From contig PWXV01000199.1 in the NCBI GenBank assembly GCA_003568415.1, positions 1-38,181 of the forward strand: DNA of 38,181 bases, in the 5' to 3' direction. Each line of letters begins with the position of its first letter. Positions within the stretch are counted from its first letter, which is position 1. Below are positions 6,499-38,048 of this stretch, piece by piece. Origin of the DNA: Ignavibacteriales bacterium (GTDB lineage Bacteria; Bacteroidota; Ignavibacteria; T3Sed10-11). The position numbers and the translations under genes were made by a program. The notes beneath the pieces are model-generated. The model did not search any database. It saw only the letters and a list, made by a program, of their open reading frames with translations, and was not told the DNA's origin.

Positions 6499-6957
6499 CT
6501 ACTGTACGCGTATTTCAGGTTCTACATCAACACTCGCTTTAATAGAATTTGCGATCAAACATTTCTCATGTGCACTGTGCACTATTTCTTTTGCTTGCTC
6601 CACCGCCTCTTCCGATTCTACCGTTATTTCAGGTTTCAGTACGACATGGGTAAATCTGTAACTACCGTCAACAAACTCCAGCTTTCCCTCTGCTTTACTT
6701 TCGTACGATATAAACGGTAATTGCTTACGATAAGCAAACGCCAGAAATGTAGTCATTGTGCATGCCTCAACCGCCGCAACGAAGAGGTCTTCCGGTGTCC
6801 ATACCCCTTCTTCTCCCTTAAATTCAGGAGGACTTGCAACCCTGAAATCCGGCTTGCCCTCTGAATGTATCATGCCTGCACGCTCTTCAATCCATTTTAA
6901 ATTGGTTTGATATGTAAATGTTTTATATTTAGGTTTTGGCTCTTGTACATCATTCAT
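6499..6957 (-). CDS. OsmC family protein
   Basis: 152 aa; 'TPEDLFVAAVEACTMTTFLAFA' Cys motif and 'AHEKCLIANSI' second Cys. Confidence 0.88.
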   Translation of the reverse strand: MNDVQEPKPKYKTFTYQTNLKWIEERAGMIHSEGKPDFRVASPPEFKGEEGVWTPEDLFVAAVEACTMTTFLAFAYRKQLPFISYESKAEGKLEFVDGSYRFTHVVLKPEITVESEEAVEQAKEIVHSAHEKCLIANSIKASVDVEPEIRVQ

Positions 6958-7325: not shown

Positions 7326-7796
7326 TCAGTTATTACTATCTGCGGTTTGTTCGACTGTTTCCTTTATACGATCCGCCGGTTCAATCCTGTATGAATGGGA
7401 TAATTTGACCGTCGGCTCTACCATCGCTGAAACACCGCAGTATTTTGTTATTGATAATTCAATTGCTTTTTCAATATCTCTTTCATTCAGATCATCACCG
7501 TAAAAAACATACTCCATATGAACTTCCGTAAAAATCCGTGGATGTTCATCGCGTTCTTTTGCACGGAGATGAATCTCATAATGTTTTACATCAATCCGCT
7601 TTTTCTGCAAAATTGAAACAACATCACTGGAAGTACATCCGCCGACAGCAAACAATAACAGTTCCTTCGGACTTGCACCTGCTCCGTGTCCGCCGGCTTT
7701 TGGTTTTGTATCCATTATTACCCAGTGATTCGAATCAGATTTTGCCGCATAGGTATTTCCTTTAATCTGCACAACAGTTGCTTTTTTTTCAGTCAT
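7326..7796 (-). CDS. OsmC family protein
   Basis: 156 aa; '[28 protein letters not shown]' and '[12 protein letters not shown]'. Confidence 0.9.
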
Positions 7797-27812: not shown

Positions 27813-28535
27813 TTATACATTTGCTTCGATACGAAACGCTTCCCGTCGTCGAATTTCAGCCCGATGCCGCGGATTGAGACGTTTTCGTTTTAATAATTCT
27901 TCTATTCGTTTCCGGACATCATGAAAATCCGAAAATTCAAAATAGCTTATATTGGAATCACGGCAATATTGTATTAATCTTCGTTTTGCAAACACCACGT
28001 CTGCATAGTCGGCTGCGCAGCGATCCGAAATTCCGTCGCCGACAATGACACGTAACTGATCATCTCCGGCATTATTTAAAACGTGTGTCCCTTTACAATT
28101 TGCCGCACGCTCACAATGCGGGTTCTTATACGGAAACTCCGGCAGCAACATATTATTTTCAATCCGAAGTTTGTTTGCGTATACCGGCAAATAATCGAGC
28201 TTATAGTTACGTAATATCCTGTCAATATAATAATCGAATCCGTCACTCAGGATTTCGACCTCAATAGTATGTTGCTCACAAAAAGCAACAAAAGCCGGGA
28301 AACCTGCATCAAGCTCTTGTTCATCAATCAGCGCGTTAAACCGATCAACATCGAGATCGTTTACATCTGCACACTCACGCCGGATACATTCATCGCCGCT
28401 GATCTCACCTTTCAGGTATAACGCAACGGCATCGCGAACTGCGTCGCCACCGAATGTTTTAAACAATACCATCCGTACATCACTTTTACAGACAGTCCCG
28501 TCAAAGTCGCAAAATATTTTCAAAGAACGTATCAT
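27813..28535 (-). CDS. HAD-superfamily phosphatase, MtnX-like
   Basis: FCDFDGTVCKSDV; VEILSDGFDYYIDRIL; VIVGDGISDRCAADYADVVFAK. Confidence 0.85.
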   Translation of the reverse strand: MIRSLKIFCDFDGTVCKSDVRMVLFKTFGGDAVRDAVALYLKGEISGDECIRRECADVNDLDVDRFNALIDEQELDAGFPAFVAFCEQHTIEVEILSDGFDYYIDRILRNYKLDYLPVYANKLRIENNMLLPEFPYKNPHCERAANCKGTHVLNNAGDDQLRVIVGDGISDRCAADYADVVFAKRRLIQYCRDSNISYFEFSDFHDVRKRIEELLKRKRLNPRHRAEIRRREAFRIEANV

Positions 28536-31500
28536 TAATTGACTGCCGCTGTTGAGTCATTAAACCGAACCGATACCAGTTTTGAAACACCGCTTTCTTC
28601 CATTGTCACACCATAGAGGGCAGCGGCGGCCTCCATCGTACGTTTATTATGTGTAACTACAATAAACTGCGTATTATCACTGAACTGGTCCAACATATTG
28701 GTAAACCGGTCGATGTTTGAATCGTCAAGCGGTGCGTCAACTTCATCAAGAATACAGAACGGACTCGGTTTAACCAGATAAATCGCGAACAAAAGCGCAA
28801 TCGCTGTGAGTGTTTTTTCTCCGCCGGAAAGCAATGATATCGATGTCGGTCGCTTTCCACGCGGTTTAGCGATTATTTCAATCTTTGCTTCAAGTAAATC
28901 TATATTTTTCGGCGATGTTTCGGATTCCGTTTCCGGATCAACTATACGCAGATCGCACTCATCACCTTCGTCGAATAAACTTTTAAACGTTTTTATAAAA
29001 TTTTCGCGGATCTGTTTAAAGGTGTCGAGAAATTTCTCCTGCGCTGTGGTATTGATCTCGTCAATAGTTTCGATCAGTGTTTTCTCCGATTCAAGCAGGT
29101 CCTCACTCTGACTTTTAAGAAATTTCAATCGCTCTAATTCATTCTCATATTCTTCGAACGCAGCAAAGTTTACGCTCCCAAGTTTCCGCAGACGGTTTTT
29201 TATCTCGTGGATTTTCTCACGCGGGCCGGCTATATCGAAGGAGTCATCATCCGGAAATGTTTTTAGCTCAAGGGTAAACTCGAGCTCTTCCGCAGCACGT
29301 TGCTCCATAGATTCAATCTTGAGTTTTAGTTCATTCAATTTCATCTCAAGCTCATGGGTAATTGAAACCGAATCATCCCGGATACGCCGATCATCCCGTA
29401 TTGCATCGGTGATATTCTGCACCTCGTTACGTTTAGCATGGTGTTCTTTTTCAATTTCTTCCCGCCTGGCTTCAATAGCTTTCAGGTCACCTCTCAGATG
29501 CTCAAGTTCGTGTTCTGTCTCGGTAATTTTTTGCCGCTCCGTTTTCAGCTCCTCCTCAGCGTGCGCTATTTCGTCTGTGCGCTGTTCAATAAGATCATTG
29601 AGTTCTGTTATCTTTGAGTCGGCAAATTCAATTTCACGTTCAAGCTTACTTCGTGCGTTTACCTTATCGAGTTTTCGAACGGATATCTGATTCACAATGC
29701 CCGCGCGTTGATTCCGTTCTTTTTCAAGATATTCCACCTCTTCCGACATCATACCGACACGATGTTCGGTTTCAGATCGTTTTCGCTCAAGTTCTTCAAG
29801 CTCAGGTTGAAATTCCTGAAGCGTTACCTGTAATTCATCAATTTCTTTTTGAAGCTTGTGAGATTCGGCTTCATTTCGTTCTATTGCTTCTTCGGCGCGT
29901 TTTTTCTCAAATTGCAATTGTGCAATCCGTATTTCTATTGTGGTGATATTCTTTTCAAGTGATTTTACCGTTTCGCTCTCGGTTTTCACATCGATCGTCT
30001 GAAACTCGTCATTTTTTATCCGTATCTCGCTCTCAAGGTGATCACGCGTTTCATCAAGTGCCGCAAGATCCCGGTTCAGCTCTTCGATTTGCTGACGTTT
30101 GCTGATCGAGCGCCCTTCATCCGAGCGGGTACTTCCTCCCCGTAAGATGCCGTCGGCAGATATTTTCTCGCCATCAAGTGTTACACATTCCCGTACTCCC
30201 GGCTGTCGGATCAGTTCGTTGCCGTCAACAAGTGAATCGACAATTACTGTTCCGTGTAAGATAAGATTCATTACAGGCGCAAGCTGTGCCGGTATGTCGA
30301 CGACATCTGCTGCCCATGAGAGGGCGGTTTCGGGTAATGCTGTTCGCCTTGATATATCTGAATATTCATTCGTGTTTACGCGATCGAGACAGAGAAAGGT
30401 AGCTTTTCCTTTACCATCCTGTTTCAATAATTCGATCGCTTTGCCGGCATCTTCCGAGGATTCGAGCACAATATACCCGGCTGCTTCACCAAGTACCGCT
30501 TCAACGGCAACCCTATACCGGGAATCAGTACGTATCATTTCACCAAGGGTAGTTACCTCGATTGAAGATGACGACCATTTGCGGTTTTGCAGAAGATATT
30601 GGGCACCTTCCGTCATGCCGTCATGAGATTCAATCAATCCTTTCAGAAATTGTAAGCGTGTTTGAGCCCGTTCTATCGAACTTTTGGTCTCATAGAGACC
30701 GGCCCGGAGACTATCGAGTTCCTGTAAAACTTCGCGGCGGCGATTCTCCGTTCGATATAGTTTAATTTCAGCTTCAACAAATTCTTCCCGAAATGCTTTA
30801 TGTTCTGTGGTAACCGAATCGATTTTCTTATTTATTTCCTGAATCTCATTCTTATAGTGAGTATTTTCTTCATCGGCGCGCTCAATTCTACCTTTTAAAT
30901 TATCTATCCGGGCTTTACTTCGTTCCTGTTCACGCCTGCTTTCTCCGATGCTGCGAACAATTTCTATTACACCGTCTTGTTCGGCGCGCAGATTCTTTTT
31001 CTTTTGATTAAGTGCTTCTTCAAACTCTTTTAGATCACGCTGCTTTTCGTTCAGCTCGGCATCCACAGTTTGGATCTCACTCTCTATTTTCTCGATCTGC
31101 CTCCGGTGTTTGGATTTAGCTTCATCAAGGCGGTGAATTTGATTGTAGGCTCCGATCTTTTCTTGCTCATACCGTTTGATATTATCGCGTAATGTTTTTG
31201 TCCGTTCGACGGCAATAATACGTTGCTCGTCGGTTTTATGGATTGTGTCCCTTAGGGTGTTATATTCTTTTAGCGCAGCATTCAACCCCGACTCTATACT
31301 GCTCATCTCATCGCGTAAGACCTCAAGTAATGCTTCACGACGTTTTAATTCTTCGTCTATACGGTTTTTATCATCGAGTGCCACTTTCAGTTTTTCATCA
31401 AGTGATGTATGTTGCGCCACGGCAGCAGCATATTCACGTTCGATAAGTCCGATCTCAATTTTTCTTAATTCATCTGCAAGTTCTTTGTGTTCTTCTGCTT

Positions 31501-32131
31501 TCCTAGCCTGTCGCTCAAGTGAGTTAACCGTCTTTTGCACCTCTTTTATGATATCATTCACACGCATAAGATCGGACTGCACATGTTCAAGACGGCGGTA
31601 CGCCTCTTTACGGCGATGTTTATAACGCGTAACACCGGCAGCTTCTTCAAACAAACGTCGCCGTTCGTCGGCTTTATCGCTTAGAATGGTTTCAACCATC
31701 TTGAGCTCAATAACCGAATATGCATTTGCTCCCATGCCGGTATCCATAAAGAGATCGATAATATCTTTGAGCCGGCACACTGTTCCGTTAAGAACATACT
31801 CACTTTCTCCGGAACGGTATAATCGACGCCCAATGGTAACCTCGGAATACTCAGTCGGCAGGATGCCTTTTGTATTTTCGATGGTTAATTGTACCTCTGC
31901 CATACTTAACGGTTTGCGCCGCTCAGTACCGTTAAATATTACATCTTCCATTTTATCACTCCGGAGGGTACTGGACCTTTGTTCACCCAGCACCCAGCGT
32001 ATCGCATCAACGATGTTCGTTTTACCACACCCGTTCGGTCCGACGATCGCAGTCATACCCGAATCGAAGGTCACCTGTACCTTATGAGCAAAAGATTTAA
32101 ATCCAAATAAATCGAGTTTTGATAAATACAT
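28535..32131 (-). CDS. smc: Chromosome segregation protein SMC
   Basis: [15 protein letters not shown]; Walker A [21 protein letters not shown]; coiled coils and hinge; [39 protein letters not shown]. Confidence 0.97.
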   Translation of the reverse strand: [1198 protein letters not shown]

Positions 32132-32138
32132 AAAACCC

Positions 32139-34826
32139 TTAAAACCGGAATCCCTCAAACATATGTATGAAAAAACTGATATATGAAAATGTTGCCTGTA
32201 AATATTCGCTTATAAGCAACATAATACCATTGAATGAGATCAAAATAAAAATGCCTAATATATAAACTCGGAACGGAATTACGTCATAAATTATCGAAAT
32301 ACCTTTTAATAGCCGGAACAAAACCCACAACATCAATAGTCCGATTAATATGAGTGCAGGTGCAACATAAAATTCCGTTTCAAGAACATTGTATAATATC
32401 ATCGCTAACGGTATAAATGCCACAAGGGGTAGCGCGGACCAAAACGTAATAACAAACGAGTGTGATAATAAGACCCGCGTTTTGATAAAAAATGAACACA
32501 ACTTAACAACAAGGGAGATGAGCACCATCATTAAAAGATACAATGCAGCAATAATCAGTATAATCTGCCAGGTGTTATTGACAGAATTTGCCAGTAAGGT
32601 TTTAGCACTATCGGTAATTAAAAAATGAGTAAAGAAATGATCGACGAGTTGATTTTGACTATAATGTTGTATAAAACTGGCAAAGATCATTCCCATCGTC
32701 AGTGAGATCAATAAGCCGAGATTAATGGTATGAAAGCCGGAGAGAACTCTTTGATCCCGGACATCCGCATAAAAATTATATGGCCGCAGCAGTGACCTGT
32801 TAACATTTTCTCTGAATCGCCTGCTTGAATTCAACATATACGCAAATCCGATCAGGACGAGAAATCCGCCGACAATATACTCAAAGGGTGTACGACTGGG
32901 CAATTCGCCGGCGGTAAGTGTCGGTGGCGGGTCACCCCGATACAATGCCCGAACCACTTCAAATCCTTTTCGCTGTTGCCTGTCAGCGCTGAGAATTCCG
33001 CTTGTGTGCAGAAAAAAATCAGAATCAGGGACGACCATTATCGGCCGCTCTGCCCGCCAATCGGTAAATGAATTTATTAATACCCCATCGATGTTATGTT
33101 CGCGCAACGTTTGCATCATCTGCAATAAATATCTTGCCTGGGCATTGTACGAAGCCGGATCATTATAACCACGTGTATTACCCGGTTCTACATAATAACC
33201 TAGTTTACCAATTAACAGCGGTTTATCAGGATAACGTTCCTTCCACTCTCTCACAGACTCAGGTACACCCTTTCGTAATCCCGGCGGGAAATTCATAACT
33301 GCAAGATCAAGATATTCTGTAGTCATATCATTTGCCGGAAATTGCGATGCCGCATAAACAGGCCTCTCATCCATTGACTGTACAAACTCACGTATATCCT
33401 GTACATACTGTTGCGTTCCCTGGTGCGGCATTTCCAGGTTATCGCCGATCCCCCATGCAAAAATCGAAGGATGGTGACGATCACGTTTAATCATCGACTC
33501 AAGATAGAATTTCGCAGTTTCACGAAATACTGGATTCTTTAATAATGAACCGGGAATATTAACCGCGGGCATTTCGATCATACATAGTATCCCGTAGCGA
33601 TCAAACAAATTCAGCAGGTATGGATGCGGAGGATGAAATGCAACGCGGACAAAATTAATATTCGCAATACTCATCAGTGCAACATCCCGTTCGAGTTTTT
33701 CATAACTCATTGCGTTACCGCTGTCGGGATGATATTCATGATACACTATTCCACGTGCGCGGAACGGTTCTCCGTTTAGATAAATTGCGCCGTCGCGAAT
33801 TTCGATATCCCGGAAACCATATATTACGTTTTTAATATCGTACTCTACACCGTTTCTGTATACAATAATCGAAACCGTATAGAGATCGGGTTGGCCCGGA
33901 CTCCACAAGCGGGGATTTCGGGCTATTACCCGAATTGTTTCATGTACCGTTCGTGCATTTTCGAACTCGACTGAAACTCTCTGGCTTTGTGCAAGCGTAA
34001 TGCCCCGCATCCGGTCAATAATTGTTACGGCAACCTGATATGTATCCTCGACGAACTCTTCTTCGTCTATATCCGGATCCGGATCAACCGATGTATAATT
34101 TTGCCTTTGCAGAGAGACATCAACATCCATCTCTGCAACGGTATATCCATCGAGAAAAGTTGTGTGAATTTGTTTATCGATAATTGAGGTAGCAGGTTTT
34201 CTCAAAATATAAATATCACGAAAGATTCCGCCATAATTCCTTGGTGTCCACATTTGCGGTTTAATAGGAAGAGTATCACGCGGTCTGAGGTAATTATTCA
34301 CAGATATTTGAATAATGTTTTCACCTTCCCGAAGTATGTCGGCCGAAACCGGTATAGTAAAACTCGTATACCCTCCACTTTGGCTGCCAACCGAAGTACC
34401 ATTAATGGTAATATCTGCAGTATAATTTATCCCATAGGCAACAAGTTCGAAGGAGGCATCGTCGAGTACTTCAGAAGGGATCGTGAATGTTCGTTCATAG
34501 TGAAACTGTCCAACACCATCATAGGCACTGGGAACTTCTATGGACTCATAGGCACCACCATTGACGGAGACTTGCCAGAGACCCGAAAGGTCTATCTTTT
34601 GACGGGTCGGGCTTTCTGTAAAGATACCGGCATCCTGTCCGGTTGCGGTTTGAAATCCACCGATAAGGAAGGATGAATCGGCTTTGACAGTGTTCACAGG
34701 GGTAAACACCCCAATCATGAAGAAAACCATCACGATCGTGAGATTGATAAATGACAGGATTGATGACCGATTCAAATGCTGATACCGGAAATTTAAAATG
34801 TTCCAAATTTGAGTAATTTTACACAT
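32139..34826 (-). CDS. GH2-like glycosidase-fold protein with C-terminal multi-TM domain; predicted pseudoenzyme
   Basis: GH2 sugar-binding, immunoglobulin-like and TIM-barrel signatures (FHYERTFTIP, GGIFRDIYI, HHPSIFAWGIGDN, PLLIGKLG); several C-terminal TM helices. Confidence 0.8.
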   Translation of the reverse strand: MCKITQIWNILNFRYQHLNRSSILSFINLTIVMVFFMIGVFTPVNTVKADSSFLIGGFQTATGQDAGIFTESPTRQKIDLSGLWQVSVNGGAYESIEVPSAYDGVGQFHYERTFTIPSEVLDDASFELVAYGINYTADITINGTSVGSQSGGYTSFTIPVSADILREGENIIQISVNNYLRPRDTLPIKPQMWTPRNYGGIFRDIYILRKPATSIIDKQIHTTFLDGYTVAEMDVDVSLQRQNYTSVDPDPDIDEEEFVEDTYQVAVTIIDRMRGITLAQSQRVSVEFENARTVHETIRVIARNPRLWSPGQPDLYTVSIIVYRNGVEYDIKNVIYGFRDIEIRDGAIYLNGEPFRARGIVYHEYHPDSGNAMSYEKLERDVALMSIANINFVRVAFHPPHPYLLNLFDRYGILCMIEMPAVNIPGSLLKNPVFRETAKFYLESMIKRDRHHPSIFAWGIGDNLEMPHQGTQQYVQDIREFVQSMDERPVYAASQFPANDMTTEYLDLAVMNFPPGLRKGVPESVREWKERYPDKPLLIGKLGYYVEPGNTRGYNDPASYNAQARYLLQMMQTLREHNIDGVLINSFTDWRAERPIMVVPDSDFFLHTSGILSADRQQRKGFEVVRALYRGDPPPTLTAGELPSRTPFEYIVGGFLVLIGFAYMLNSSRRFRENVNRSLLRPYNFYADVRDQRVLSGFHTINLGLLISLTMGMIFASFIQHYSQNQLVDHFFTHFLITDSAKTLLANSVNNTWQIILIIAALYLLMMVLISLVVKLCSFFIKTRVLLSHSFVITFWSALPLVAFIPLAMILYNVLETEFYVAPALILIGLLMLWVLFRLLKGISIIYDVIPFRVYILGIFILISFNGIMLLISEYLQATFSYISFFIHMFEGFRF

Positions 34827-34927: not shown

Positions 34928-35515
34928 TTATGAACCGATCGTATGCCGGTACGAATGGGCGATGAGATAAAGTAGCTCAGCGTGCTGGATATTCATTAAA
35001 TCTCTTTCGATGGGTTGCCCCGTATTTTGAGTTTTTTCAACCAATTCATTAAATAACTCAGGATTCCAGCCATTTTGAGTCAGCAGGTATTGTTGAATAT
35101 TTTCGGGGGCATATTGTGTTACATAATCATATACCAGTGAAAATACAGGATGATCCCCTGTTTTCCGGAACCAGTAGTTTGAGTTCAACATATCAGGTTC
35201 ACGACGGTGAATAATAGCGTGAAAATAACTTCCTTCTGGTGTAGATATATTCTGTGCAATTTTGTGTGCTTCATTTTCACAATCATTCCAGATCAGCAGT
35301 CCGCTTACCACTGCTTTTGCACAGTTTTCATTTTTAACGGGTTCGGGTTGAAACAATTCAGCCAGATCAGCAGATACCAGCGTTTCCTCTGCTTCTCTGT
35401 TATATGGTTTAGAAAAAATCAATCCGGGATGATGATTGCGCAAATCACCAATAATATTTTTTATTTTCTTCGCTTTGATAGAACCGGAAAAATCGTTAAT
35501 CAATCGATCAATCAT
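34928..35515 (-). CDS. Conserved uncharacterised protein
   Basis: 195 aa; 'STPEGSYFHAIIHRREPDMLNSNYWFRKTGDHPVF' resembles a conserved motif I recall from unnamed bacterial proteins. Confidence 0.7.
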   Translation of the reverse strand: MIDRLINDFSGSIKAKKIKNIIGDLRNHHPGLIFSKPYNREAEETLVSADLAELFQPEPVKNENCAKAVVSGLLIWNDCENEAHKIAQNISTPEGSYFHAIIHRREPDMLNSNYWFRKTGDHPVFSLVYDYVTQYAPENIQQYLLTQNGWNPELFNELVEKTQNTGQPIERDLMNIQHAELLYLIAHSYRHTIGS

Positions 35516-36487: not shown

Positions 36488-36528
36488 AAAAATGCTCCAT
36501 CTCAAGGACAGGTCATCGCAGCATTTTT
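36488..36528 (-). terminator. Terminator overlapping the 3' end of the GNAT-nitrilase gene
   Basis: Minus strand AAAAATGCT...AGCATTTTTTTT; the upstream arm lies in the last codons and the stop is in the loop. Confidence 0.65.
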
Positions 36529-38048
36529 ATCTCATACAGGTCACTCCGACGATCACGCAATTGTATGACGCTACCGGACCGTCTATGCCGTTTCAAGACC
36601 TCAAGATCAACATCCTGTACTATGACTGTTTCAACATTTGGATTGCACTCGTCGGCGATTCCATCCCGGGGAAACGAAAAATCAGAGGGTGTATATATGC
36701 CCGACTGGGCGTATTGGATATCCATATTCTGTACGTGCGGAAGATTGCCAACCGTACCTGCAATTACCGTGTAAATTTGATTTTCAATTGCCCGTGCCTG
36801 GGCGCAATATCGTACACGAAGATATCCCTGACGATCTTCAGTACAGAATGGTACGAAAATTATCCGCGCACCTCGTTCCGTTGCAATGCGGGCGACTTCG
36901 GGGAATTCGATATCGTAGCAAATCTGAATTGCTATTTTACCACAATCGGTGTCATAAACCTGCACTTTTTCACCGGCCTCTATTCCCCACCATCTCCGTT
37001 CATTTGGTGTAATATGAATTTTATACTGACGCTCGATCGTTCCGTCACGACGGAAAAGAAACGATATATTGTACAGTCGATTGTCTTCTTCAACGATGTG
37101 AGAACCACCGATAATATTCACATTTGACTTCACTGCAAGATCGGTAAATAAATTTAAATAATCGTCAGTATACTTTGAAAGCTCACGAATCGCCTGTTCG
37201 GGTCGTTTCTCTTCGATAAATGATAAGAGCTGTACCGTCAATAATTCCGGGAATACCGCAAAATCGGATTCATAACCACCGGCAACATCTGCAAAGTAGG
37301 AGCATGCATCAGCAAACTCTTTAAATGAGGATATTTTTCTCATCATATATTGAATAACACATATACGTACCGGGAACGAAGTTTTAAAATGACGTTTCGT
37401 TCGCGGTTCATATTCAACATTGTTCCACTCTGCTAGGATTGCAAATGTATGCGACTCTCTGTCACCGGGAAGGTAATTCGTAAGTACCCGTATCACATTA
37501 AATCCATTCTTCACCTGAAACGTTAATACAGGATCATAAATATTCTGAGCGAGCACTTCCTCAATGTATTCACGAACCGATAATTTATCGGCATATTTAT
37601 GGAAGTTTGGAATTCTGCCACCGATAATGATGCTTTTAAGGTTTAGTTCCCGCGCAAGTTGTTTACGGGCTTCATAAATCCTATGCCCGATTTTCATCTG
37701 CCGGTAATCGGGATGCACCATAACCTCCATACCATAAAGATTGTAACCTTCCGGATCATGATTGGTAATGTATCCGTTGTCTGTTATTTCAGACCAGGTA
37801 TGTTGATCGCTATAATCGTCAAAATCAACGATCAGACTTGAACTTGAGCCGATGATCTTCCCTTCATACTCGACACAAATTTGACCTTCGGGAAATATTC
37901 GATGATGATGTTCAAGTTGATCAGTTGTCCATGGCTTCATGTTTGGAAAACACATTACCTGGAGTTCAATGATCTCTTTAAAATCATCGGGACGAATATT
38001 CCGGACGACGATTTTTTTCTCAAACTTCTTCAGGTCAATTTTCGGCAT
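36513..38048 (-). CDS. GNAT acetyltransferase - carbon-nitrogen hydrolase fusion protein
   Basis: N-terminal GNAT (GMEVMVHPDYRQMKIGHRIYEAR); C-terminal nitrilase triad contexts FPELL, YKIHITPNE, CYDIEFPE. Confidence 0.92.
   Translation of the reverse strand: MPKIDLKKFEKKIVVRNIRPDDFKEIIELQVMCFPNMKPWTTDQLEHHHRIFPEGQICVEYEGKIIGSSSSLIVDFDDYSDQHTWSEITDNGYITNHDPEGYNLYGMEVMVHPDYRQMKIGHRIYEARKQLARELNLKSIIIGGRIPNFHKYADKLSVREYIEEVLAQNIYDPVLTFQVKNGFNVIRVLTNYLPGDRESHTFAILAEWNNVEYEPRTKRHFKTSFPVRICVIQYMMRKISSFKEFADACSYFADVAGGYESDFAVFPELLTVQLLSFIEEKRPEQAIRELSKYTDDYLNLFTDLAVKSNVNIIGGSHIVEEDNRLYNISFLFRRDGTIERQYKIHITPNERRWWGIEAGEKVQVYDTDCGKIAIQICYDIEFPEVARIATERGARIIFVPFCTEDRQGYLRVRYCAQARAIENQIYTVIAGTVGNLPHVQNMDIQYAQSGIYTPSDFSFPRDGIADECNPNVETVIVQDVDLEVLKRHRRSGSVIQLRDRRSDLYEIKMLR

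Follow-up and report, generated by a model that had tools for sequence, protein, structure and literature searches.

The window analysed here, a stretch of 38,181 nucleotides from an Ignavibacteriales bacterium, encodes an 895-residue protein that probably carries a pseudo-GH2 head in the periplasm, mounted on a Yip1 membrane module and used for binding, sensing or scaffolding, not for hydrolysis. Judged by its relatives, the gene belongs to an old family of orthologues that most genomes sampled from the class carry and that extends to several further classes of the phylum. We propose that a secreted three-domain GH2-type head would lie in the periplasm and be joined, through a transmembrane helix and a basic cytoplasmic loop, to a Yip1-like membrane domain. 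The head would most likely bind something periplasmic, either a glycan or a protein, which may vary by lineage, and once bound it would position the membrane module and the conserved cytoplasmic loop, or signal to them. Homology alone would call this near-universal class protein a beta-galactosidase or a beta-glucuronidase, and it is very probably neither. A literature search for Yip1 together with glycoside hydrolases or smc returned nothing relevant and no description of the family. The retention of such a protein throughout the group, nearly always without its catalytic residues and mostly just in front of smc, suggests a non-enzymatic role in the envelope that is widespread.

Domain architecture and catalytic positions

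The reading frame is open over its whole length (Table 1). Its GH2 part passes the curated Pfam cut-offs for all three domains (Glyco_hydro_2_N, 43.6 bits; Glyco_hydro_2, 38.8 bits; Glyco_hydro_2_C, 97.1 bits, residues 341-629). It shares the three-domain core of GH2 proteins of the LacZ/beta-glucuronidase type (PF02837, PF00703, PF02836; e.g., 8dhe, 3k46 and E. coli LacZ) and can be aligned to them throughout, the best-aligning chains being 8dhe, 6xxw and 6ncy. A sequence-only reading of the window had described a GH2 architecture intact over about 600 aa with no frameshift, and had named an HMM alignment to Glyco_hydro_2_C as a check. The uninterrupted frame, the three domains and the match of 97 bits agree with that description, but the ~600 aa make up the GH2 part only, and a membrane domain of ~250 residues then follows; this domain, the smc linkage and the family-wide pattern had escaped that reading. 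The signal sequence is probably cleaved after VKA, ahead of DSS. An AlphaFold2 prediction from three sequences, the window protein, L033 and L034, had a mean pLDDT of 39, too low for a usable structure.

Table 1. Features of the gene and its downstream neighbour, in window coordinates.
Feature	Coordinates	Strand	Basis or remark
Pseudo-GH2/Yip1-like membrane protein, stop codon included	32139..34826	-	895 aa
Hydrophobic signal sequence, residues 1-50	34677..34826	-	hydropathy
GH2 jelly-roll (Glyco_hydro_2_N), residues 75-211	34194..34604	-	domain match and alignment to GH2 chains
GH2 Ig-like domain (Glyco_hydro_2), residues 212-339	33810..34193	-	domain match
GH2 TIM barrel without catalytic glutamates, residues 340-630	32937..33809	-	domain match and alignments
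Asn463, codon AAC, acid/base position	33438..33440	-	alignments and codon reading
Lys541, codon AAA, nucleophile position	33204..33206	-	alignments and codon reading
Predicted transmembrane helix 1 of six, following the GH2 domains, residues 647-666, out to in	32829..32888	-	hydropathy and positive-inside rule
Basic loop, predicted cytoplasmic, residues 667-698, RRFRExxxRxxxRPYNFFADIRDQRxxS	32733..32828	-	family alignments
Yip1-like domain, residues 699-895, five further predicted helices	32142..32732	-	orthologue matches and hydropathy
smc (SMC_N and SMC_hinge), directly downstream	28535..32131	-	domain matches; likely start MYLSKLDLFGFKSF, 7 nt past the stop codon

The window protein has lost the acid/base glutamate of the NE motif and the nucleophile glutamate as well. 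The acid/base Glu of E. coli LacZ chains aligns with N463 and the nucleophile Glu of 8dhe with K541, and in all 18 GH2 paralogues of the class that were aligned with it, both catalytic columns hold Glu. Reading of the codons, together with these alignments, confirmed the Asn and the Lys that the sequence-only reading had placed at the two positions. All five aligned members of the genus, the window's included, have the N/K dyad, which rules out a sequencing error. Orthologues share it within the genus; other families carry many different replacements. Around the dyad, the window protein has F397, H398, D462 and N585 where the paralogues have H, Y, N and W, respectively, and it still has the H363 and R394 of active GH2s. 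The Glu of the GDNLE motif (E465), named in the sequence-only reading as a possible refutation, was considered as a shifted catalytic residue and rejected: it sits two positions away from the catalytic column, and only the window's genus (f1) conserves it.

The window protein is thus a homologue of glycosidases in which the catalytic residues are gone and selection is purifying, the features by which pseudoglycosidases are recognised. Established examples are the chitinase-like YKL-39 from GH18, Klotho from GH1 and CyRPA from GH33 (PMC7828330), in which, as here, a glycosidase fold outlives catalysis; in those examples it is used for binding. They are, however, eukaryotic and belong to other GH families, whereas the present family is bacterial, belongs to GH2, has probably parted with catalysis many times over and occurs almost throughout its class. 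It differs from GH2 proteins in lacking, in all but one of its families, the Glu pair and the sugar-contacting residues, and in adding a C-terminal membrane domain; the words membrane and inactive are both absent from a survey of GH2 domains (PMC5145203).

Six membrane helices are predicted after the GH2 part, one ahead of the basic loop and five past it. If the head is placed outside and the loop inside, the charges obey the positive-inside rule; hydropathy suggests five helices past the loop, where Yip1 proteins have five segments preceded by a cytoplasmic region, both being predictions only. Nowhere is the protein more conserved than in the loop, which has 2.88 bits per column versus 1.79 in the barrel and 1.89 in the jelly roll. 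The window's own C-terminal domain has no match to Yip1 (PF04893), and we apply the label because those of 20/28 orthologues match at E<=1 (best 1.4e-7); a free-standing Yip1-only protein of one family (f10) exceeds the Pfam cut-off (31.4 vs 28.6 bits). Like the Yip1 family, whose clan also includes DUF1282, this is a predicted multi-span membrane domain. Unlike that family, it comes with a large, probably periplasmic GH2 head and with its own cytoplasmic motif, RRFRE...RPYNFFADIRDQR. Eukaryotic YIPF motifs such as D-[LF]-x-[GI]-P are absent from the orthologue alignment, read by eye against the motifs in PMC6682643; for prokaryotic Yip1 proteins, that review of 2019 reported no function. The family gives a way into the study of bacterial Yip1 domains and a conserved smc neighbour whose role is directly testable.

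Distribution of the family and loss of the active site

We searched for orthologues across the phylum, with a class sample of 98 genomes besides the window's. Orthologues combining GH2 and Yip1 parts are present in 85/98. The remaining 13 consist of one genome with the gene in two overlapping frames (G029), one with the gene divided between contigs (G056), six f10 genomes with the Yip1 part only and five f10 genomes with neither part. In G029, a single-contig genome, the two frames (L091, 5330-8057) correspond to the GH2 part and the Yip1 part, and either a real split or a frameshift may account for them. In the phylum-wide search with the Yip1 part, four families from other classes (f27, f30, f45 and f57) gave proteins of full length, and f34, f46, f48 and f49 gave shorter barrel-Yip1 proteins of 520-640 aa. 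These shorter proteins (L120-L124 and L140-L142) have a highly diverged barrel and a Yip1-like domain, lack the jelly roll and do not adjoin smc; the two that were scanned, L120 and L123, matched no Pfam family. The two named relatives are Bacteroidetes MAGs, and a study of Siberian soda lakes (PMC6704655) is the origin of the MAG names in the CSSed162cmB series.

Both glutamates are kept in a single family, f16, with 5 of 115 full-length sequences (L010-L014), the sole members with a complete GH2 active site. Other invariant or nearly invariant residues of active GH2s are retained there too, among them H363, H397, Y398, N462 and W585. Outside f16, the family-weighted retention is 6% for H at 363, 6% for H at 397, 19% for N at 462 and 28% for W at 585, and the structural positions W84, P99, N142, G200, W308, P313, G412, D589 and G610 are held at 99-100%. 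All other lineages sampled have lost one or both glutamates, with many different replacements. The acid/base Glu alone is kept in f25, f23 and part of f12, f18 and f3, and the nucleophile Glu alone in f9, f22, f30, most of f21 and parts of f14 and f45. Sugar-contacting residues disappear together with the dyad, and no set of replacements is common to the families. The fold has therefore been kept while the active site was lost repeatedly, which argues for a working role today that is not hydrolysis.

By parsimony, the pair taken as a unit requires at least 2 changes and the single positions 9 and 8, or 14 and 17 losses if regain is disallowed. A single basal loss of the dyad is rejected on these counts, because f16 has both glutamates and further lineages retain either one of them. 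In the GH2 tree, the members of the family form one clade apart from the GH2 paralogues (100/100), with f16 nested inside it and grouped with the window's larger clade (96/93). The Yip1 tree places f16 in the same larger group with weaker support (81). Acquisition of the f16 GH2 part by replacement was rejected on the strength of these two placements. Root-to-tip paths are shortest for the GH2 part of f16 (0.70-0.75 vs a median of 1.62), as expected if catalytic constraint continues there, and the outgroup of active GH2s could pull f16 rootward since f16 keeps GH2-like residues. The simplest and most likely reading is that the ancestor had a complete GH2 active site that was then lost repeatedly. 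At the level of sequence, f16 also shows that enzymatic activity would be compatible with the GH2-Yip1 architecture. Repeated catalytic loss alongside one lineage with the full site makes the family a natural series for the evolution of an enzyme into a binding or signalling protein.

The complete active site of f16 could be taken to mean that the family as a whole is still enzymatic, acting through other residues or in a non-hydrolytic reaction; an acidic residue at 418 and D589 indeed persist in nearly all members. Both, however, are also invariant in ordinary GH2s beside the Glu pair, and so are inherited, not new, and no new conserved acid appears at the barrel mouth across families. We therefore regard continued catalysis as very improbable.

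Selection on the barrel and its putative ligand

Where dS is reliable, dN/dS of the barrel is 0.074 in f4 (T/A dyad, dS 0.48) and 0.034 in f5 (D/Y dyad, dS 0.77); the remaining pairs, with saturated or high dS, point in the same direction. The barrel is under strong purifying selection, and values of 0.03-0.07 exclude decay. Although the absence of both catalytic residues is what a decaying pseudogene might display, the gene is uninterrupted in almost all genomes, its dN/dS is well below 0.1 where dS is reliable and it has been kept across the class, which leaves decay a negligible probability. The sequence-only reading had pictured a retained, non-catalytic protein that is not decaying, and the class-wide orthologues, the near-general catalytic loss and the low barrel dN/dS in lineages with a dead dyad bear it out.

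Conservation at the barrel mouth, whose segments were picked by eye from motif positions, bears on what the head may bind. In the window's genus the mouth is invariant at 0.75 of positions versus 0.48 for the rest of the barrel (p=6e-5), and in f16 at 0.82 versus 0.66; several families (f14, f17, f45 and f27) have no such excess. This suggests that the mouth may be used for a ligand in some lineages, the window's included. The ligand could be the sugar once cleaved by the enzymatic ancestor, making the protein a lectin-like glycan sensor, as the sequence-only reading had proposed. The invariant mouth in the window's genus fits this idea, and pseudoglycosidases that retain sugar binding are known (PMC7828330). 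However, substrate-contacting positions besides the two glutamates have also been replaced, differently in each lineage, and in the four families named above the mouth carries no extra conservation. We consider a lectin role possible but doubtful, and favour the broader reading of a head that probably binds a glycan or a protein according to lineage.

The smc neighbourhood

Directly behind the gene, in the same orientation, comes smc at 94 loci, which represent 22 families and several classes; the median gap is 11 nt and the gap is <=30 nt in 72/94, an arrangement in which the two may be co-transcribed. The next most conserved neighbour, a triosephosphate-isomerase-like gene, recurs in 8 families only. 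In f10 the lone Yip1 part still sits in front of smc: L092, L093 and L094 encode free-standing Yip1-like proteins of ~260-290 aa directly upstream of it, without a GH2 head. Four f10 relatives (G023, G058, G066 and G079) have smc with no detectable Yip1 gene before it. The gene lies away from smc in f6, f14, f15, f19, f23, f24 and most of f4. Overall, the linkage is of ancient origin without being obligatory. Loss of smc from these lineages was rejected as an explanation, as the members checked carry it at another place. As smc was found in 27/28 genomes checked, its co-occurrence with the gene says little. The linkage may be functional, or it may be frozen gene order.

Were it functional, the protein might act as an envelope-to-chromosome tether or sensor: the basic loop would anchor SMC (or DNA) to the membrane, and the head in the periplasm would convey the condition of the envelope. 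The breadth and tightness of the linkage, the far lower conservation of other neighbours, the persistence of the Yip1-only part before smc and the exceptional conservation of the predicted cytoplasmic loop would all fit such a role. However, as the unlinked families show, the two genes need not be linked; in several f10 genomes no partner of smc is detectable; co-occurrence says little when nearly all genomes checked have smc; and gene order by housekeeping genes can freeze without interaction. On balance we find a tether or sensor of this kind unlikely. Slightly less likely again is its extension to the whole phylum: a receptor or tether spanning the envelope, whose dead GH2 head in the periplasm and Yip1 module with its conserved basic loop would act with the co-encoded SMC to couple the state of the envelope to chromosome organisation.

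Directly upstream of the gene, the window encodes a 195-aa protein without a Pfam match (34928-35515, minus strand), which has a counterpart at the same place in L004-L007 of the same genus. Elsewhere in the window, a GNAT acetyltransferase is fused to a carbon-nitrogen hydrolase (36513-38048, minus strand), and two OsmC-like proteins, recognised by eye, lie close together on the same strand (6499-6957 and 7326-7796, both minus).
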